Positions 20,094-31,773 of a stretch of DNA of 64,000 nucleotides are shown here, piece after piece. Made by a program: the position numbers and the translations under genes. The stretch spans positions 124,001 through 188,000 of the forward strand of contig NZ_NOIU01000001.1 in the NCBI RefSeq assembly GCF_004136635.1, given 5' to 3'. Source of the DNA: Rothia halotolerans (lineage in GTDB: Bacteria > Actinomycetota > Actinomycetes > Actinomycetales > Micrococcaceae). The stretch's first letter is position 1, and every line of letters begins with the position of its first letter. The notes beneath the pieces were generated by a model. The model was not told the origin of the DNA, ran no database searches, and saw only the letters and a program-made list of their open reading frames with translations.

Positions 20094-20651
20094 ATGCCGC
20101 GCCGCCTCGCGCAGCTTCAGCGCGAGCGGGCCGGTCCGCTCCTCCCGCCAGCGCGGTCCGACGAAGCCGATCCGCAGGATGCGGGGGTCGAGGTCCTCCT
20201 CGGAGCCCTCGACCACCGGCGCCTCGGCGCCGACGGCGCGCTCCAGCTCGATCTCCACCCGCGACTCGGCGAGGTGCTCCACCAGGCCGCGGCCCCACTC
20301 GACGACCGTGACGGCGCCGTCCATGGAGTACTCGAGGTCGAGGTCGTCGACCTCCTCGGCGCTGGAGAGCCGGTACGCGTCCACGTGCACCAGGGAGGGC
20401 CCGCCGGGCCGGGCCCCCTCGGGGTCGTTGCGGTGGATCCGGGAGAGCACGAACGTCGGCGAGATCACGCTCCCGAGCACCCCCAGCCCCTCGCCCAGGG
20501 CGCGGGTGAAGGTCGTCTTGCCGGCCCCGAGCTCCCCCGTGAGCACCAGCAGGTCCCCCGCCCGCAGGCTCCCGGCCAGCACGTGCGCCACGCGCTGGGT
20601 GGCCTCCGTGCCGTGCAGCTCCAGGACCGCGTCCTCCTCCGCCTCAGTCAT
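20091..20651 (-). CDS. tsaE: tRNA t6A biosynthesis ATPase TsaE
   Basis: A 186-residue P-loop ATPase that powers or regulates the TsaBD complex. The Walker A motif is GELGAGKTTFTRALG (about 39-53), followed by SPTFVL and HVDAYRL, and a Trp-bearing VVEWGRG. About 30 residues longer than the E. coli protein because of a loop and C-terminal extension (roughly 135-186). The start overlaps the end of alr by 8 nt. Confidence 0.94.
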   Translation of the reverse strand: MTEAEEDAVLELHGTEATQRVAHVLAGSLRAGDLLVLTGELGAGKTTFTRALGEGLGVLGSVISPTFVLSRIHRNDPEGARPGGPSLVHVDAYRLSSAEEVDDLDLEYSMDGAVTVVEWGRGLVEHLAESRVEIELERAVGAEAPVVEGSEEDLDPRILRIGFVGPRWREERTGPLALKLREAARH

Positions 20652-22023
20652 GGCCCGTCCCGTCCTCTCGCTCGGCGCCGCCCGCCGTCACCCGCTCCAC
20701 GCGCGGGGAGATGCGGGTGACGATCTCGTAGTTGATGGTCCCGGCGGCCTCGGCCCAGTCGTCGGCCGAGGGCTCCTCCCCTGCTCCGAACAGCACCGCC
20801 GGCGCGTGGAGGTAGCCCAGGGCGGGGTCGCTGAGCCCGGGCTCGCCCAGGTCGACGACGAGCTGGTCCATCGCGATCCTGCCGACCACGGGATAGGTCC
20901 TGGCCGGCGCCCCCGAGGGGTGGATCCGCACGGGGCCGCCGGTGGCCACGCGCGGGACGCCGTCGGCGTAGCCCAGGGGGATCAGGGCGAGGGTCGTGGG
21001 GCGCTCGGTGCGGTAGGCGAGGCCGTAGGAGACCCCCTGGCCTGCCGGGACCTCCTTGACGGCGTCGACCGTGGTCCGCAGCGTCATCACCGGGCGCAGG
21101 CCGAAGTCCTCGGGGGGCACCCCGCTGATCGGCGAGAGGCCGTAGAGGGCCAGGCCGACCCGCACGGCGTCGTAGTACGGGGCCGCGCCCTGGGGGGCGG
21201 CGCCGTCTGTGAGCAGGAGGGCGAGGGTCGCGGGCGAGTTCGCGACGTGCAGCAGGGCCGGCCGCAGGCCCGCGGCGCGCGCCCGGGCGACGGCGTCGTC
21301 GAACCGCTCCAGCTGCTCCCGCGTCTCGGGGCGCTCCGGCTCGTCGGCCACGGCCAGGTGGGTGAAGATCCCGACGACCTCGACCAGGCCCCGCTCCTCG
21401 AGGGCCCGGGCGCGCTCGACGAGGTCGGGCCACCGCTGCGCCGTCGAGCCGTTGCGGCCCAGGCCGGTGTCGATCTTCAGGTGCACCCGCGCGGTGCGGC
21501 CAGAGCCCTCGGCGGCGGCCGCGATCGGCTCCAGCTCCCAGCCGGAGACGCCGAGCTCGACGTCGTGCTCCAGCGCCGCCGCGAAGTCGGTGGAGGAGGT
21601 GTGCAGCCAGGCCAGCACCGTCCCGCCGATCCCCTCCTCGCGCAGCCGCAGGGCCTCCCGCACGTGGGCGACCCCGAGCAGGTCCGCGCCGGCCGCCAGC
21701 GCCGCGCGGGCGACGGCGGAGGCGCCGTGGCCGTAGGCGTCGGCCTTGACGACCGCGATCAGCCGGGCCGGCGCCACGAGGCGGCGCAGCCTGCGGACGT
21801 TGTGGGCGAGGGCGTCCAGGTCGATGACGGCGGCCCGCTCGGGCAACGGGGCGGGCGGAGGCTCCGGGGCGGAGGGAGACGGCGCGGAGGTGCCGGCGGG
21901 AGATGTCGCGGGCTTCGAGAGGCTCGCAGAGTCCGGAACGCTGACGGGGTCCTGGGCGGGGGCGCGGCCGGAGCCCGCTGCGGGGTCCGGGCCGCGCCGG
22001 GGGGCGGGGCTGCAGGATGGCAT
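20644..22023 (-). CDS. alr: Alanine racemase
   Basis: A PLP enzyme interconverting L- and D-alanine for peptidoglycan. The barrel begins around residue 65 (AAVIDLDALAHNVRRLR), and the PLP lysine is in AVVKADAYGHGA (about residue 92). The catalytic Tyr region is GVSYGLAYRT and the C-terminal domain has GRIAMDQLVVDLG. The annotated start ATG 22023 leaves an unusual 60-residue Pro/Ser/Ala-rich leader. It is not a signal peptide, and either it is a disordered extension or a start inside it is used. First gene of the t6A cluster; its stop overlaps tsaE. It diverges from mshA across about 190 bp. Confidence 0.93.
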   Translation of the reverse strand: MPSCSPAPRRGPDPAAGSGRAPAQDPVSVPDSASLSKPATSPAGTSAPSPSAPEPPPAPLPERAAVIDLDALAHNVRRLRRLVAPARLIAVVKADAYGHGASAVARAALAAGADLLGVAHVREALRLREEGIGGTVLAWLHTSSTDFAAALEHDVELGVSGWELEPIAAAAEGSGRTARVHLKIDTGLGRNGSTAQRWPDLVERARALEERGLVEVVGIFTHLAVADEPERPETREQLERFDDAVARARAAGLRPALLHVANSPATLALLLTDGAAPQGAAPYYDAVRVGLALYGLSPISGVPPEDFGLRPVMTLRTTVDAVKEVPAGQGVSYGLAYRTERPTTLALIPLGYADGVPRVATGGPVRIHPSGAPARTYPVVGRIAMDQLVVDLGEPGLSDPALGYLHAPAVLFGAGEEPSADDWAEAAGTINYEIVTRISPRVERVTAGGAEREDGTGHD

Positions 22024-22216: not shown

Positions 22217-23506
22217 GTGAGTTCAACGGAGACAGGACGCGGGCGGATCGTCCACGTGATCAGCATGCACACCTCCCCCCTCGCCCAGCCGGGGCACGGG
22301 GACGCCGGCGGCATGAACGTCTACATCGGCCAGCTCTCCCGGGCCCTCGCCCGCACCGGGGTGCGCGTGGAAGCCTTCACCCTCCTGACCGCCCCTCCCG
22401 AGGACGCCGACCCATCGCTCCCCGCCGCCCGCTCGACCGGCGTCTCCCCCGGCTACACCGTGCACGAGCTCTACCTGCCCGAGGCCGCCGGCGCCGGCAA
22501 GGAGGCCATGGCGGAGCTGACCGGCGCCTTCGGCCGCGCCTGCGCCGAGCGCGTCCGCGGGGGCCTCCCCGCCCCCGACGTGATCCACGCCCACTACTGG
22601 CTCTCCGGGCGGGCCGCCGAGTCCTACCGGGAGGCCCTCGGGGAGCCGGTGGACGACGTCGGGAGCTCCCGGACCGGGTCCGCAGGCCCCCGGGGGATCC
22701 CCCTCGTCGCGGTCCTGCACACCAGCGCCATGGTCAAGAACCTCTCCGCCGGTCCCGCCGAGCCGCCCGAGCCCGCCAGCCGCGTCCGCGGCGAGCGCGA
22801 GGTGATCCGCTCCGCGGCCGCCCTGATCGTCAACACCGAGGCCGAGGCGGCGCAGATGGCGAGCCTCTACGGCGCCGACCCGGCCAGGACCCGGGTGATC
22901 CCGCCCGGCGTCGACGCCGCCGTCTTCCGCCCCGGCCCGCCGCGCCCGGCCGACGGCCGCTTCCGCGTGCTCTTCGCCGGCCGCCCGCAGCCGCTCAAGG
23001 GCCCGGAGATCCTGCTGCGCGCCGTCGCGCTGGCCCGCCCCGCCGTCCCCGGGATCGAGCTGGAGATCCGCGGCACCGCCGGCGAGCGCTACCTGGCCGA
23101 GCTCGCCGCGCTGGCCCGGGAGCTGGGGATCGACGACGTCGTCCGCTTCTACCCCGCCACCACCAGCGCGGACCTGGCCGAGGCCTTCCGCCGTGCCGAC
23201 GTCGTCGCCTGCCCCTCCTCTTCGGAGACCTTCGGCCTGGTGGCGCTCGAGGCGCAGGCCTGCGGGGCGGTGGTGCTGGGCTCCGACGTGACCGGGCTGC
23301 GGGCAGCGCTCGACGACGGCCGGGCGGGCCTGCTGGTCCCCCGCCGGGAGCCGGATGCCTGGGCCCGGGCGCTGGGCGAGGCCGCCGCGGCCCCGGCCCT
23401 GCGGAAGCGGCTGAGCGCCGCGGCAGTCGCCCACGCTCACGGGCTGACCTGGGACGACGCCGCCCGGCGGACCGTCCGCGTATACGAGGACCTGCTGAAC
23501 GGATGA
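22217..23506 (+). CDS. mshA: D-inositol-3-phosphate glycosyltransferase MshA
   Basis: The first step of mycothiol synthesis: GlcNAc from UDP-GlcNAc is joined to 1D-myo-inositol 3-phosphate. 429 residues of GT-B family 4: acceptor loop GHGDAGGMNVYIGQLSRAL (about 23-41), HYWLSG, and the nucleotide-sugar motif SSSETFGLVALEAQACG near residue 340. I chose GTG 22217 from the promoter spacing; GTG 22211 would add two residues. A phosphatase-like gene is fused to its end by overlap or near contact. Presence of this gene marks the organism as an actinobacterium using mycothiol as its redox buffer. Confidence 0.95.
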   Translation: MSSTETGRGRIVHVISMHTSPLAQPGHGDAGGMNVYIGQLSRALARTGVRVEAFTLLTAPPEDADPSLPAARSTGVSPGYTVHELYLPEAAGAGKEAMAELTGAFGRACAERVRGGLPAPDVIHAHYWLSGRAAESYREALGEPVDDVGSSRTGSAGPRGIPLVAVLHTSAMVKNLSAGPAEPPEPASRVRGEREVIRSAAALIVNTEAEAAQMASLYGADPARTRVIPPGVDAAVFRPGPPRPADGRFRVLFAGRPQPLKGPEILLRAVALARPAVPGIELEIRGTAGERYLAELAALARELGIDDVVRFYPATTSADLAEAFRRADVVACPSSSETFGLVALEAQACGAVVLGSDVTGLRAALDDGRAGLLVPRREPDAWARALGEAAAAPALRKRLSAAAVAHAHGLTWDDAARRTVRVYEDLLNG

Positions 23507-23517
23507 TGGAGGAGACG

Positions 23518-24312
23518 ATGGACGGAACGGACATCCACGACGAGGCGGCCTTCGCGGCCTACCTGGACCGGGCGCGCATCACGGGTGAGGTCGGGACCCC
23601 GCGCCAGGACAACCTGGCCCACATCGAGGGGTTCCTGGCCGGGAACGAGCACCTCGAGTTCGGCGTCGAGCTGACCCGGCGGTGGAGCCGCGAGGAGGTC
23701 TTCGAGCTCATGGTGGACCGGGTCGGGCTGCACCCGGACCCCGCGCACGCGCACGGGCAGGACACCATCAGCGCCGACCGCTGCGTCGCCGCCCTGACCC
23801 GCTACGCGCGGCGCTTCGGCGAGGCCGTGCGGGCGGGCTCCGCGATCCTCTTCGCGACCGGGCACCCGGCGGGCCTGTTCCCCGTCTACCAGCATCTGGC
23901 GGAGGCCGCCCGGCGGCACGGGGCCTGGGTGGTCGGCATCGAGGAGGGCATCCGCTTCGACGGCGGCGACCTCCGGCAGATCAACGACGTCGTGATGTTC
24001 CAGCAGTACGGCTCGCTCGCCCACACGCACCTCCCCGAGCCGATGCGGCTGGTCCTGGCGCAGCTGCGCGAGGCCGGGGCCCCGGTGGACTTCGTGGTGG
24101 CCGACCACGGGTGGGCGGGGGCCGCGGCGAGCGCCGGGCTGCCCACGATCGGGATCGCCGACTGCAACGACCCCGGCCTGTTCGTCTCCGAGGCGCAGGG
24201 CCAGCTGGAGGTCGCGGTGCCGATGGACGACAACGTCCTGCCGCACCTCTACGACCCGGTCACGGAGTTCGTCCTGGACCGCGCGGGCCTGCTGGTCGGC
24301 AGCGCCGTCTGA
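23518..24312 (+). CDS. Uncharacterised protein of a phosphatase-annotated actinobacterial family
   Basis: A 264-residue soluble protein, no signal peptide or membrane segment. Strings such as LFATGHPAGLFPVYQHL, VVADHGWAGAAAS and IGIADCNDPGLFVSEAQGQL suggest a conserved active-site protein. I recall relatives labelled only as phosphatase, without experimental proof. ATG 23518 has GGAGG 5 nt upstream. An earlier in-frame ATG (23503) overlaps the mshA stop as ATGA. Either way it is coupled to mshA. That makes it a candidate for dephosphorylating the MshA product, a step (MshA2) for which I know of no assigned gene; this is inference from position. Confidence 0.8.
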   Translation: MDGTDIHDEAAFAAYLDRARITGEVGTPRQDNLAHIEGFLAGNEHLEFGVELTRRWSREEVFELMVDRVGLHPDPAHAHGQDTISADRCVAALTRYARRFGEAVRAGSAILFATGHPAGLFPVYQHLAEAARRHGAWVVGIEEGIRFDGGDLRQINDVVMFQQYGSLAHTHLPEPMRLVLAQLREAGAPVDFVVADHGWAGAAASAGLPTIGIADCNDPGLFVSEAQGQLEVAVPMDDNVLPHLYDPVTEFVLDRAGLLVGSAV

Positions 24313-24370: not shown

Positions 24371-25984
24371 TCAGGCCCCCAGCAGCCGGCCGAGCTCGCC
24401 CGGGATGCGACGCGCGGCCACGCTGGGCGGCAGCGGCCCCGGCTCGGCCCGGCTGACCGCCCTCTGCAGCAGCAGGGCCCCGGCGGCGACCCCGGCCCAG
24501 GCGGCGTCGTCCTCCGGCGCCGCGCCGTTCTCCACCCGCGCCCCGTGGCAGGCCGCGGCCGCGCCCAGCATCCCGGTCAGTGTGTCCCCCGAGCCGGCCG
24601 TGGCAAGCCAGGGGCTGCCCCCGGTGTGCGCGTAGACGACGCCGGGCCCGGCCACCACCGTGGTCCCGCCCTTGAGCAGCAGCGTCCCGCCCAGGACCTC
24701 GCGGGCGGCCCGGGCCCACGGCAGCGGCGCCGCCTCGATCCGGGCGCGGTCGGGGAATCCCTCCTCGGGCAGCTCCTCCTCGGCGAGGCCCGCCTCCAGG
24801 GCTGCCGCGCGCAGCCGCTCCCCCGCAGAGCCGCTCAGCCGCACCGCCCATTCCAGGGCGGAGGCGAGCTCCCCGGCGTGCGGGGTCATGATCACCGAGG
24901 CTCGGGCCCGCTCGCCCTCGCCCGCGGCGCCGGCCAGGATCCGGATCGCCTCTGCGTCGGCGACCACGGGCAGCCCCGAGTCCAGGGCCGCCCGGATCTC
25001 GTGCTCCGCGCCGGGGCCGGCCGCGCCCGAGCCCACGGCCCACGCCTGGACCCGGTCCGCCCCCACGTGCTCGCTGCGCACGGCCTCGGGGCATTCCAGC
25101 GCCATGAGCCCGGCCAGGGTGTCCCCGCCGGTGTACCGGACCATCCCGGCGCCGGAGTTGACCGCCGCCCGGACGCACATCAGGCCCGCGCCGGGGTAGG
25201 CGTCGCTGCCCGCCACCGTGCCCAGGACCCCGCGGGTGTACTTGTGGTCCCCCTCGCCGGGGGCGGGCCAGACGGCCGGGAGGTCCGCGTCCTCCAGGAC
25301 CAGGACGCCGGGCTCGGGGAGGTCCTCCTCGATACCGATGGGCACGACGTCGAGCTTCCCCACCGGCCTGGCGGCCGCGGGGGCCGCCAGGCCGGTGGTC
25401 GGGGCGGCGAAGGTCACCGTCACGTCCGCCGGGAGCACCGGCTGCACGAGGCGGCCCGTGGTCGCGTCCAGGCCGGAGGGGACGTCGCAGACGAGGACGG
25501 CGGGGCGGTCGGCGCCGGCGTCGCCCCGGTCGGCCAGCAGCTCGCGGACCAGGCCCGCCGCCGGCTCCCGCAGGCCGCCGGAGCCCCCGGTGCCGAGGAT
25601 CCCGTCCACGATCAGCGCGGATCCGGCTGCCGCCTCGCGGCAGGCCCGGGCGCCGTCGTCCTCCAGGGAGAGCACGGCGCCGCCGGTCCCGCGCAGGGCC
25701 GCCAGCCCCTCCTCGTGGTGCCGGGCCGCGGTCAGCACCGCGGTGACCTCGGCCCCGCGGGAGCTCAGCCCGGCCCCGGCGTACAGGGCGTCGCCGCCGT
25801 TGTTCCCGGCCCCCACCAGCAGCGCGACCCGCGCGCCGGCGACGCCGCCCGCGCGCTCCTCGAGCAGCCGGGCCGCCGCCGCGGCCAGGCCGCGGGCCGC
25901 GACGGCCATGAGCTGCTCGCCGGCCTCCAGATGGGGCCGCTCCGCCTGACGGACCTGCTCCGCGGTGTATGCCTTCAGGACCAT
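24371..25984 (-). CDS. nnr: Bifunctional NAD(P)H-hydrate epimerase / ADP-dependent dehydratase
   Basis: Repairs damaged NAD(P)H hydrates. The N-terminal YjeF-N epimerase domain (about 1-220) has VGAGNNGGDALYAGAGL. The C-terminal ribokinase-like dehydratase domain (about 235-535) has MTPHAGELASALEW, LLKGGTTVV and the ATP/ADP-site block GSGDTLTGMLGA. 537 residues is normal for the fused form. The ATG at 25984 lies inside the end of acpS (10-nt overlap), so translation is coupled. It converges with the mshA-phosphatase operon. Confidence 0.95.
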   Translation of the reverse strand: MVLKAYTAEQVRQAERPHLEAGEQLMAVAARGLAAAAARLLEERAGGVAGARVALLVGAGNNGGDALYAGAGLSSRGAEVTAVLTAARHHEEGLAALRGTGGAVLSLEDDGARACREAAAGSALIVDGILGTGGSGGLREPAAGLVRELLADRGDAGADRPAVLVCDVPSGLDATTGRLVQPVLPADVTVTFAAPTTGLAAPAAARPVGKLDVVPIGIEEDLPEPGVLVLEDADLPAVWPAPGEGDHKYTRGVLGTVAGSDAYPGAGLMCVRAAVNSGAGMVRYTGGDTLAGLMALECPEAVRSEHVGADRVQAWAVGSGAAGPGAEHEIRAALDSGLPVVADAEAIRILAGAAGEGERARASVIMTPHAGELASALEWAVRLSGSAGERLRAAALEAGLAEEELPEEGFPDRARIEAAPLPWARAAREVLGGTLLLKGGTTVVAGPGVVYAHTGGSPWLATAGSGDTLTGMLGAAAACHGARVENGAAPEDDAAWAGVAAGALLLQRAVSRAEPGPLPPSVAARRIPGELGRLLGA

Positions 25985-28645: not shown

Positions 28646-29785
28646 TCAGGCCGCCTCGAACACCTCCACCAGCTGCGGGTGCAGCGGGTGCTCGGGCCCG
28701 ACGCCGGTCAGCCGCTCCACCAGCTCCCCGCGCCGCCCGGCGTACTCCTCCAGCAGCCCGCGCAGCTCCTGCGCCTCGGGATCACCCTCGACGTCGAAGG
28801 CCAGCGCAGCCCCGACCGCGGCCACCAGCGCCTCCGGCCGGTGCCCGTGCTCGGCGAGCTCGGCCGCGGGGCCGACGAAGCGCTCCCCCGCCGAGATCTT
28901 GCGCAGCGGGGCCCGGCCCACCCGCTCCACCGTGTCCGGCAGGTGCGGGTTCGAGAAGCGGGTCAGGATCTTCCCGATGTACTCCTGCTGGGTCTCCGGC
29001 GCGAAGCCGAACTTCTCGACCAGCAGCTGCTTGGTCTCGGCCAGCACCGCCTCGACGCGGGAGCGCACGCCGGCGTCGGCGAGCGCGTCCGAGATCTTGT
29101 GCAGCCCCTGGAGGCGGCCGAAGTAGGCGGTCGCCGCGTGGCCGGTGTTGACCGTGTACAGCTTGCGGGTGATGTAGGGCGCCAGGTCCTCGACCCACGT
29201 GATGCCGGGGACCTCCGGGACGGCGTCGCCGAAGGGCTTCGACTCCACCGCCCACTCGTAGTAGGTCTCCACGGTGACATCGAGGCCGCCGCCCTGTTCC
29301 TGCTGGGGCACGATCCGGTCCACGGCGGTGTTCGCGAAGATCGCGACGTCGTCGGCCTCGGGATAGGCCTCGCGGATCGCGGCGGCGAGCCCGTCGGTGG
29401 CGTTGATCGCGTTCTCGCACGCCATCACCGCGACCTTCCCCGGCGTGCCGGCCTCGGCACGGGCCCGCAGGCCCTCGGCGATGGCCGGCGCGATGATCTT
29501 CAGGACGGTCGGCCCCACCGCGGTGGTGACGACGTCCGCCTCGACGATCCGCCGCCGCAGCCCCTCGGGGTCGCTCGCAGAGTTGACCCCGCTGAACCCG
29601 GTGACCCGGATGTCGCGGGGCTCGGCGCCGACCTCGTGGACGGTGTAGGAGTCCTGCTCGTTGAGGGCCTCGATCAGCGGGGCCGCGACGTCGGCGAAGA
29701 CGAGCTCGTAGCCCGCCTCGTGGAGGAGGACCCCCACGAATCCGCGGCCGATGTTCCCCGCTCCGAAGTGAAGTGCCTTCTTCAT
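28646..29785 (-). CDS. mtlD: Mannitol-1-phosphate 5-dehydrogenase
   Basis: Oxidises mannitol 1-phosphate to fructose 6-phosphate with NAD+. The 379-residue protein starts MKKALHFGAGNIGRGFVG, the NAD-binding loop, and has the family block KLYTVNTGHAATAYFG with the Lys/Asn/His active-site set in the middle. ATG 29785 overlaps the mtlA stop as ATGA, so expression is coupled to the transporter. The operon ends here with two hairpins. Its product feeds glmS, the next gene, through fructose 6-phosphate, though they are separately transcribed. Confidence 0.96.
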   Translation of the reverse strand: MKKALHFGAGNIGRGFVGVLLHEAGYELVFADVAAPLIEALNEQDSYTVHEVGAEPRDIRVTGFSGVNSASDPEGLRRRIVEADVVTTAVGPTVLKIIAPAIAEGLRARAEAGTPGKVAVMACENAINATDGLAAAIREAYPEADDVAIFANTAVDRIVPQQEQGGGLDVTVETYYEWAVESKPFGDAVPEVPGITWVEDLAPYITRKLYTVNTGHAATAYFGRLQGLHKISDALADAGVRSRVEAVLAETKQLLVEKFGFAPETQQEYIGKILTRFSNPHLPDTVERVGRAPLRKISAGERFVGPAAELAEHGHRPEALVAAVGAALAFDVEGDPEAQELRGLLEEYAGRRGELVERLTGVGPEHPLHPQLVEVFEAA

Positions 29786-31773
29786 GCGTTGACCTTTCCG
29801 AAGATCTCGAGGACCTCCTCAGCGGAGCCGGCCCGCTCGAGACGGGCGACGGCCTCCTTGTCGGAGAAGACCTTGGCGATCTTCTGCAGCAGCTCCAGGT
29901 GCTGCCCGCCGGCGCCGGCGATGCCGATGACGAAGCGGACGGGCTTGCCGTTCCAGTCGATCTCCTCGTCGTAGCGCACCAGGGAGACGGCCGAGGAGTG
30001 GATGGCCGACTTCGCCTCGTTGGTGCCGTGCGGGATCGCCAGGCCGTTGCCCATGAACGTGGACACCGAGGACTCGCGCTCGTGCATGGCGGCGAGGTAC
30101 GCGTCCTCGACCTTGCCGGTCGCGATCAGCAGGCCGCCTGTCTCGTCGATCGCGGCGTCGCGGTCGGCGGCCTGCCCGCCCAGGACGATCGAGTCGGCGG
30201 TCAGGATGCCCTCGGTCGCCGAGCCGCTCTGCGCCTCGGCATCCCCCGCGGGCTCCGCCGGGGCCCCGGCGCCGGGCTCGGCGGCCTCGCCCTCGCGCTG
30301 GCGGCGGATGGTCTCCACGATCTCGTCGTAGCGCGGCGAGCCCATGAAGTTGTCCACCGTGACGTGGGCGGCCGAGGGCGTCGGGTCCTTCGCCCGGTCG
30401 TAGAGGTCCTCGTGGACCACCACCAGGTCGAACTCGTCCGTGAGGTTGTTGATCGCGGAGTTGACGACGCTGATCTGGTCCCCGTAGCCGGCCTTCTTGA
30501 TCTTGTTGCGCAGCACCGAGGCGCCCATCGCGGAGGAGCCCATGCCGGCGTCGCACGCGAAGACGATCTTGGAGATCTGCGCGCCGCCGGCCTGGCCGTC
30601 CTCCCCGGTCAGGAAGCCGGAGACCGAGGACTTCTTGCCCTTCATGCCCTCCATCTGGGCCGTGGCCTTGGCCAGGTCGTCCTCCGACTGCTTGGAGAAC
30701 TTCAGGATCGCCGAGGCGACCACGCAGGAGACCACCGTCGCCGCCAGCACGCCCAGGACGACGCCCACGTAGGAGTCGTTGGCCGTGGAGAGCAGCACCA
30801 TGATGATCGATCCGGGCGCGGCCGGCGAGCGCAGGCCGGCGTCGAACAGCAGCTCGACGAAGACGCCGGACATGCCGCCCGCGATGGCGGCGACGATGAG
30901 GACCGGCTTCATCAGCACGTACGGGAAGTAGATCTCGTGGATGCCGCCGAAGAACTGGATGATCGCCGCACCCGGGGCGGTGGCGCGGGAGACGCCGCGG
31001 CCGAAGAACATGTAGGCCAGCAGGATGCCGAAGCCGGGGCCGGGGTTGGCCTCGAGGAGGAACAGGATGGACTTGCCCTGCTCCAGCGACTGCTCGGTGG
31101 CCAGCGGGGTGATGATCCCGTGGTTGATGGCGTTGTTGAGGAACAGCACCTTGGCGGGCTCGATGAGGATCGAGGTCAGCGGCAGCAGGCCGTGGTCGAT
31201 CAGGAAGCCCACCGCGACGCCGGCGATGTGGGTCAGGAAGTTCATCACCGGCGTCAGCAGGAACATCGAGCCGATCGCCAGGATGGCCGCCACGATGCCC
31301 GCGGAGAAGTTGTCCACCAGCATCTCGAAGCCGGGCTTGATCTTCCCGGCCCACAGCGCATCGAGCTTCTTCATGACCCAGGCCGCGATCGGCCCCATGA
31401 TCATGGCGCCGAGGAACATGGGCGCGCCGACGCCGTCCTCGCCGATGAACACCGGCGAGCTGGTGCCCAGGATGACGCCCATGACCGCGACGGAGCCGAC
31501 GACGCCGCCCCGGACGCCGTGGATCAGCCGGCCGCCGCTGTAGGCGATGAGGATCGGCAGCAGGTAGGTGACGGTCGCCCCGACCAGCGTGTTGATCTTC
31601 TCGTTGGCGAACGGGCCGTCCGGGTAGACGAACAGCGCGGTGATGGCGCCCCAGGCGATGAAGGCGCCGATGTTCGGCATGATCATGGAGGAGAGGAAGG
31701 TGCCGAAGCGCTGCACGGCCACGCGCACTCCGCCCTTCTGCTGTCTCTCCTCCGCTGAGGTGGTGGTGCTCAC
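29782..31773 (-). CDS. mtlA: PTS mannitol transporter EIICBA, fused
   Basis: Imports mannitol and phosphorylates it. One 663-residue chain holds EIIC (about 15-360, membrane, with GGIHE at 276-280), EIIB (about 400-490, phospho-Cys407 in FACDAGMGSS) and EIIA (about 522-660, phospho-His582 in LAIPHGTNEAK), joined by Ala/Glu-rich linkers. This is the E. coli-like complete fusion, so no separate MtlF is needed. EI and HPr are not in the window. The start is GTG 31773 with GGGAG 6-7 nt upstream. A promoter with a built-in inverted repeat lies about 160-190 nt upstream; no mtlR regulator is adjacent. Confidence 0.96.
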   Translation of the reverse strand: MSTTTSAEERQQKGGVRVAVQRFGTFLSSMIMPNIGAFIAWGAITALFVYPDGPFANEKINTLVGATVTYLLPILIAYSGGRLIHGVRGGVVGSVAVMGVILGTSSPVFIGEDGVGAPMFLGAMIMGPIAAWVMKKLDALWAGKIKPGFEMLVDNFSAGIVAAILAIGSMFLLTPVMNFLTHIAGVAVGFLIDHGLLPLTSILIEPAKVLFLNNAINHGIITPLATEQSLEQGKSILFLLEANPGPGFGILLAYMFFGRGVSRATAPGAAIIQFFGGIHEIYFPYVLMKPVLIVAAIAGGMSGVFVELLFDAGLRSPAAPGSIIMVLLSTANDSYVGVVLGVLAATVVSCVVASAILKFSKQSEDDLAKATAQMEGMKGKKSSVSGFLTGEDGQAGGAQISKIVFACDAGMGSSAMGASVLRNKIKKAGYGDQISVVNSAINNLTDEFDLVVVHEDLYDRAKDPTPSAAHVTVDNFMGSPRYDEIVETIRRQREGEAAEPGAGAPAEPAGDAEAQSGSATEGILTADSIVLGGQAADRDAAIDETGGLLIATGKVEDAYLAAMHERESSVSTFMGNGLAIPHGTNEAKSAIHSSAVSLVRYDEEIDWNGKPVRFVIGIAGAGGQHLELLQKIAKVFSDKEAVARLERAGSAEEVLEIFGKVNA

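Follow-up and report, generated by a model that had tools for sequence, protein, structure and literature searches.

Does the gene that follows mshA in Rothia halotolerans encode MshA2, the enzyme that is expected to act right after MshA in mycothiol biosynthesis? MshA2 is named as a phosphatase in several papers (PMC2628429, PMC4360819, PMC9736012, PMC10826361), and it appears among the genes listed in PMC10893638 and the enzymes listed in PMC6154287; the accessible parts of these papers give no locus for it. The accessible part of a 2020 review speaks of an 'unidentified phosphatase' for the step after MshA (PMC7278568), which agrees with the original prediction that no gene had been assigned. 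Our literature search on MshA2, mycothiol phosphatases, GlcNAc-Ins-P and PF15698, which left most subscription journals out of reach, also found no gene assignment. As far as these sources were accessible, MshA2 is thus a name with no gene, and an operon shared with mshA yields a concrete candidate protein.

The two-gene locus

The DNA analysed, referred to as the window, is a stretch of 64,000 nucleotides from a genome assembly of 3.04 Mb that is 99.9% complete. It contains mshA followed on the same strand by a gene of Pfam family PF15698 (Table 1). The reading frame of mshA is already open from position 21746. For the second gene, a 264-residue protein had been proposed that starts within 12 nt of the mshA stop or else overlaps it by ATGA, and both starts are present in the sequence. 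The ATG at 23518 is the third in-frame ATG and lies 11 nt beyond the mshA stop. It is most likely the true start, because it follows the GGAGGAG at 23508-23514. With a divergent alr on one side and a convergent nnrD-type gene on the other, mshA and the PF15698 gene are alone on their strand, and this arrangement indicates a two-gene operon that is bounded on both sides. Among the best 80 of 550 loci, the closest named protein to the PF15698 protein is from Rothia santali (87%). Elsewhere in the window (28646-31773, minus strand), a mannitol dehydrogenase and a PTS EIICBA transporter are encoded behind glmS, probably as an ordinary mannitol operon.

Table 1. Features of the mshA-PF15698 locus, in positions of the window
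Feature	Position	Strand	Remarks
alr, alanine racemase, divergent neighbour 5' of mshA	20644..22023	-	PF01168/PF00842
mshA, glycosyltransferase, 429 aa	22217..23506	+	GTG 22217, TGA 23504-23506; divergent MshA
5'-most candidate start of the second gene, ATGA overlapping the mshA stop	23503..23506	+	sequence
GGAGGAG, probable ribosome binding site for ATG 23518	23508..23514	+	reading of sequence
PF15698 'Phosphatase' gene	23518..24312	+	264 aa from ATG 23518; 269 aa from ATG 23503
nnrD-type gene, YjeF_N + Carb_kinase, convergent neighbour 3'	24371..25984	-	PF03853/PF01256

Identity of the upstream protein

The naming of the upstream gene as mshA holds in so far as the top NCBIfam model for its product is TIGR03449 (MshA), with the next model at 104.1 bits, but its score of 317.9 bits is below the cut-off of 462.5. 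The protein also aligns with PDB chains 3c48 and 3c4q (E 1e-57), which we take to be MshA of Corynebacterium glutamicum. These matches identify the upstream protein as a divergent MshA. MshC is found in the same genome at 574.5 bits, above its cut-off of 485.1, so the genome is equipped for mycothiol.

Given the lack of inositol-1-phosphate synthase in the sampled Rothia genomes (see below), we asked whether Rothia MshA might use free inositol, which would remove the need for MshA2 altogether. The residues of MshA that presumably hold the phosphate of Ins-P are K78, Y110, T134 and R154, a contact list that reportedly goes back to Vetting et al. 2008. All four are kept in the window protein, which speaks against the use of free inositol and makes it probable that the acceptor is still phosphorylated (Ins-P). 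Across 83 MshA rows the contacts are nearly all kept, the exceptions being K-to-R in two rows and T-to-S in another; rows L200-L229 of this alignment were chosen by the strings HYW or GGMNVY, which makes the Tyr partly circular in those rows and not in the window protein.

Conservation of the gene pair in Micrococcaceae

Our scan of named genomes covered the best 80 of 550 confirmed PF15698 loci and is not a census. Conclusions about gene order rest on tblastn; a simple gene caller misses or flips genes in high-GC DNA. Of the 31 Micrococcaceae loci among these 80, 30 have mshA immediately before the PF15698 gene in the same orientation, and the remaining one, L124, is truncated by its contig end. 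These loci come from Rothia, Arthrobacter, one Paenarthrobacter, Haematomicrobium and Kocuria coralli. Candidate ATG or GTG starts of the PF15698 gene fall in a span that reaches from 4 nt ahead of the mshA stop to 78 nt beyond it (29 of the 31 loci, those with a listed start). A separate sample of genomes from the order gives the same picture, with mshA directly upstream in all six PF15698-positive genomes of family f1. The same-operon position that had been pointed out for the window therefore recurs, and is not due to chance.

The flanks of the pair differ. In twelve Rothia loci, Kocuria and Paenarthrobacter, tsaE and alr are found upstream and nnrD downstream, the latter 9.6 kb off in Kocuria. 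In 15 Arthrobacter-type loci the pair is preceded by a CCA-transferase gene and followed by fhs, with ino1 on the opposite strand in 14 of them. In the Haematomicrobium locus ino1 alone was seen among the flanks, 0.9 kb away. A Micrococcaceae genome that has no PF15698 gene (G008) shows the order alr, mshA, fhs. We suggest that the strongest argument for a joint function of mshA and the PF15698 gene is the occurrence of the pair in different surroundings, and the two would be expressed together in Rothia and other Micrococcaceae. As a separate observation, in the 15 Arthrobacter-type loci (L129-L158) a histidine-phosphatase-like gene precedes the PF15698 gene by 2-4 kb in the same orientation and is another possible phosphatase candidate.

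By tblastn, mshA was found in none of the fetched stretches of the 13 Brevibacterium and 36 Streptomycetaceae loci among the best 80 of 550. In a tree of 57 PF15698 rows picked by hand, the 13 Micrococcaceae rows form one group (support 96/78), with Brevibacterium as sister, followed by Streptomyces copy B and then copy A. This topology places the mshA-coupled form in one nested branch of a wider PF15698 family.

Gene neighbourhood in the wider phylum

Adjacency to mshA across actinobacteria, which had been suggested as a check, holds for Micrococcaceae, but in the wider phylum the commonest close neighbour is acuC. We looked at deep-lineage stretches covering 67 of the 71 such PF15698 genomes, many of them ended by contig ends, and at 20 class stretches picked by hand from 109 positives. 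The acuC gene is on the same strand as the PF15698 gene in 39 of the 67, in 14 immediately upstream, and it lies about 1 kb upstream on the same strand in 16 of the 20. These counts point to acuC as the older close partner of the gene. Of the 67 deep-lineage stretches, 21 have a bldC-type gene less than 1 kb downstream, and 16 contain mshA, always at a distance of more than 1.5 kb. Judged by coordinates, mshA and the PF15698 gene share contig and strand in 23 deep genomes, at distances of 1.9 to 20.9 kb. We rejected this linkage as too weak to prove function, as proC, acuC, bldC-type, Clp1-type and SAM hydrolase genes (names given from reading the sequences) are also in the region; M. tuberculosis presumably has a similar gene order around mshA.

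One could ask whether the ancestral role of the gene is linked to the deacetylase-like AcuC and to a proC-acuC-gene-bldC cluster, with no relation to inositol, so that the mshA link of Micrococcaceae would be a chance insertion that was retained. The counts for acuC given above fit with this, as do the Streptomyces copies: copy A stands in the order acuC-gene-bldC in all three stretches, and copy B (L161-L199) adjoins an agmatinase-like gene, named from its sequence, in 21 of 34 loci. These two partners presumably share the arginase/deacetylase fold. But the cluster also has proC, SAM hydrolase and other unlike genes and may be plain synteny, and it is further against an AcuC role that mshA shares region and strand with the gene in the 23 deep genomes and is paired with it in Micrococcaceae amid differing flanks. 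We regard an ancestral AcuC role as unlikely, though it deserves to be kept in view.

The PF15698 family and its invariant residues

The window protein matches the PF15698 'Phosphatase' profile with 304.5 bits (cut-off 28.4) over profile positions 2-256 of 256, and all 31 aligned members match the same family in Pfam. The statement that this family is labelled only as phosphatase was correct. 'Phosphatase' is Pfam's label, and our literature search, with most subscription journals outside its reach, found no paper naming PF15698 and no experiment behind the label; the InterPro name of the family is, we assume, taken after SCO2771. An NCBIfam search with the protein matched no model, and a sequence search of solved structures with it gave no relative. 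When the PF15698 profile was compared with the sequences of solved structures, 13 weak rows were obtained with a best E of 0.11, and uS2 is among them at E 1.

An alignment of 31 rows, consisting of 30 loci and the window protein, shows the following residues as invariant: T119, G120, H121, P122, H174, H176, D201, H202, G203, D220, D223, P224, D242 and D243. The motifs TGHP, H-x-H, DHG, D-x-NDP and DD are all present in the window protein. In the members, TGHP, DHG and H[TS]H are found in 31 of 31 and DxNDP in 28. Of the two strings that had been put forward as conserved, ADHGW is so in its D, H and G (31/31) but not in its W (13/31), and IADCNDP in both D and the P (31/31) and largely in the N (28/31) but not in its Cys (11/31). 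A catalytic Cys in IADCNDP was rejected for this reason. The invariant His and Asp residues would be compatible with a hydrolase.

The established phosphatase families that we considered have motifs of their own: DP[ILV]D[GS][TS] and WDxA[AG] in inositol monophosphatases, RHG in histidine phosphatases, DxDx[TVIL] in the HAD family and CX5R in PTP. SuhB/ImpA-type inositol monophosphatases would resemble the PF15698 protein in the action on inositol phosphates that is proposed for it. Membership in their family was rejected, with their motifs in 0 of 31 members and no Pfam match. Histidine phosphatase, HAD and PTP were also rejected, since RHG, DxDx[TVIL] and CX5R occur in 1, 10 and 16 of the 31 members and are not family-wide; the window protein itself does contain CX5R and RHG matches.

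A predicted uS2-like fold

Structure prediction had been suggested as a way of looking for a phosphatase-like pocket. The AlphaFold2 model of the window protein has a pLDDT of 93.9 with an alignment of 74 sequences, which comprised 73 of the 80 loci and the window protein; the other seven loci, which are all from Streptomyces, were excluded by hand. The invariant residues sit at the end of, or at most 8 residues after, the strands 114-118, 163-168, 197-201, 215-219 and 237-240. A His/Asp cluster near strand ends is found in a confident model, and the top fold match is the ribosomal protein uS2. All 50 matches listed by Foldseek against the PDB are chains of the ribosomal small subunit, which we took as uS2 (some are titled S2 or laminin receptor). 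Re-examination of these matches with VIA-align gave Z of 11.5-12.3, where 7 to 8 is quoted as the typical best Z for models without a clear match, and rmsd of 3.0-3.9 over 167-178 residues at 9-17% identity. As uS2-type chains fill the matches listed by both PDB searches, other folds of Rossmann kind could not be ranked. In a fold search against viral structures no match reached E 0.001.

Sequence comparison of the two families gives weaker signals. With hhalign, PF15698 against uS2 reaches P values of 0.0015 and 0.0026 (probability 17% and 12%), and the uS2 family PF00318 is matched by 1 of the 31 members at E 0.33. The order of motifs is common to both, VLFATGHP against VLFVGTKK, GLPTIGIADCNDP against GIPVVAILDTNCDP and DDN against NDD, and they are in register in the profile alignment. 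In this alignment D201, D220, D223 and D243 face E161, D180, D184 and D196 of uS2. We consider it likely that PF15698 and uS2 share common descent. New here, and the most surprising part of our results, is the combination of a uS2-like fold and a His/Asp pocket. The pocket may be a metal site, and an enzyme-like family on a uS2 fold with such invariant residues would mean that a hydrolase had arisen in an unusual way.

The fold also raises the question whether the protein is an enzyme at all. It could be an RNA- or ribosome-binding paralogue of uS2 that regulates mshA or translation. Apart from the fold match and the shared acidic motifs, such a role would be in line with H202, which faces a uS2 position occupied by His in 13 of 17 uS2 rows. 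H121, H174 and H176, however, are also invariant, face no uS2 His and lie near strand ends together with Asp. Moreover, PF00318 finds exactly one gene in each of 18 genomes, 14 of which have PF15698. We therefore think a non-enzymatic role very improbable.

Links to inositol phosphates

A broader activity than that of MshA2 is also conceivable. PF15698 might hydrolyse inositol-1-phosphate groups generally, such as free Ins-1-P or phosphatidylinositol phosphate, and adjoin mshA by way of a common inositol phosphate pool. GlcNAc-Ins-P and phosphatidylinositol phosphate both carry a 1-O-substituted D-Ins-3-P, which makes a single activity on both easier to picture. In genus g111 (family f18) all 3 of 3 PF15698 genomes have an inositol-1-phosphate synthase gene downstream of the PF15698 gene in the same orientation, at +1.1, +1.1 and +3.2 kb; the one at L108:4330-5643 is of the large type, lies directly 3' of the PF15698 gene and was confirmed by PF07994 and PF01658. 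In our phylum sample the synthase is found in 71 of 80 PF15698 genomes, compared with 204 of 296 overall. The phosphatidylinositol-phosphate phosphatase is called unidentified in the accessible part of a 2022 review (PMC9385802), and that of actinobacteria seems to lack an assigned gene; a paper on Bacteroides, in its accessible part, assigns that group's own enzyme to a PgpA-type protein (PMC9246714).

Other genomes fit less well. Five genomes of genus g118 with PF15698 have neither MshA nor the synthase. The synthase (PF01658) was also found in none of four Rothia genomes (G000, G345, G415, G483), in which an MshA-like protein and MshC are present. This absence counts against the MshA2 reading as well, since Rothia would need another source of Ins-1-P. 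In Micrococcaceae genomes without a PF15698 gene, for example G429, G315 and G517, ino1 is still near mshA, so the ino1 link of PF15698 in this family is second-hand. On balance we consider a general inositol phosphatase unlikely.

A more far-reaching proposal would see in PF15698 a new, metal-dependent class of phosphatases, descended from uS2 or sister to it, which targets 1-O-substituted D-inositol-3-phosphates and supplies MshA2 and perhaps the phosphatidylinositol-phosphate phosphatase in the actinobacteria that have it, with other lineages using unrelated enzymes. We find this proposal, taken as a whole, rather doubtful.

Taxonomic distribution and the MshA2 step

In the phylum sample of 296 genomes, 81 genomes gave a PF15698 match, of which one (G043, below cut-off) was dropped, leaving 80 above cut-off. 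MshA is found in 132 at E 1e-60. Both are present in 65 genomes, PF15698 only in 15, MshA only in 67 and neither in 149 (Fisher 6e-15, kinship ignored); with MshA at E 1e-90 the corresponding numbers are 62, 18, 61 and 155. PF15698 was found in none of 14 control genomes outside Actinomycetota, and in the window's genus it is present in 4 of 4 sampled genomes. The class sample has it in 109 of 364 genomes at E 1e-10, and a plasmid search returned two records, Embleya and Nonomuraea.

The family had been expected to be absent where MshA is absent. This was contradicted in part by the 15 of 80 PF15698 genomes without MshA, some of which are incomplete assemblies; 7 of the 15 belong to family f18. 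Six g118 genomes of this family with PF15698 have no MshA match and no MshC beyond a CysS-like match, and in the two g118 genomes scanned for MshB (G195, G248) there is no MshB and the MshC match is only CysS-like. The MshC model also matches 13 of the 14 control genomes, E. coli included.

Absence of the gene from MshA genomes is also common. Family f6, which we take to be Mycobacteriaceae, lacks PF15698 in all eight of its MshA genomes in the phylum sample; it is present in G843 of the class sample. In the order sample of 248 genomes PF15698 is found in 25, 24 of them above cut-off, namely 6 of the 19 listed genomes of family f1 and 18 of family f74. The other 13 listed f1 genomes have MshA and no PF15698. 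All 24 have an MshA-like match and MshC above cut-off. In f74, taken as Brevibacterium from sequence matches, MshC is typical and the MshA-like scores are very divergent (229-329 bits); since second, paralogous matches elsewhere reach 265 bits, some of them may not be MshA.

The PF15698 gene fails as the single MshA2 of all mycothiol makers, as it is absent from 67 of 132 MshA genomes. MshA2 would be expected right after MshA, and the gene is coupled to mshA here, yet it is missing from about half of the MshA genomes. What is left of the MshA2 candidacy is a lineage-specific form, possibly one of several. This would imply that lineages differ in the enzyme that they use for the MshA2 step. Our tentative reading, which we would place somewhat short of an even chance, is that the PF15698 protein is the phosphatase of the MshA product in Micrococcaceae. 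It would then be a soluble and probably metal-dependent phosphomonoesterase that takes the phosphate off GlcNAc-Ins-P before the MshB/Mca deacetylase acts. Elsewhere in the phylum it probably acts on related inositol phosphates or another substrate.

We also considered the gene as a replacement for MshB and rejected this, since MshB/Mca-type matches are not tied to its presence: two matches occur together with the gene in four Rothia genomes, one match with the gene in G330 and G401, and one match without it in G008 and G315. In family f15, MshA and PF15698 are found together in 10 sampled genomes, with single CysS-like MshC matches only, and a scan of four f15 genomes for MshB gave no match in three and a weak one (E 4e-21) in the fourth. 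PF15698 thus follows MshA rather than MshB or MshC in this family, yet it also occurs without all three. The f15 genomes, for example G095, G049 and G061, perhaps make a GlcNAc-inositol product other than mycothiol.
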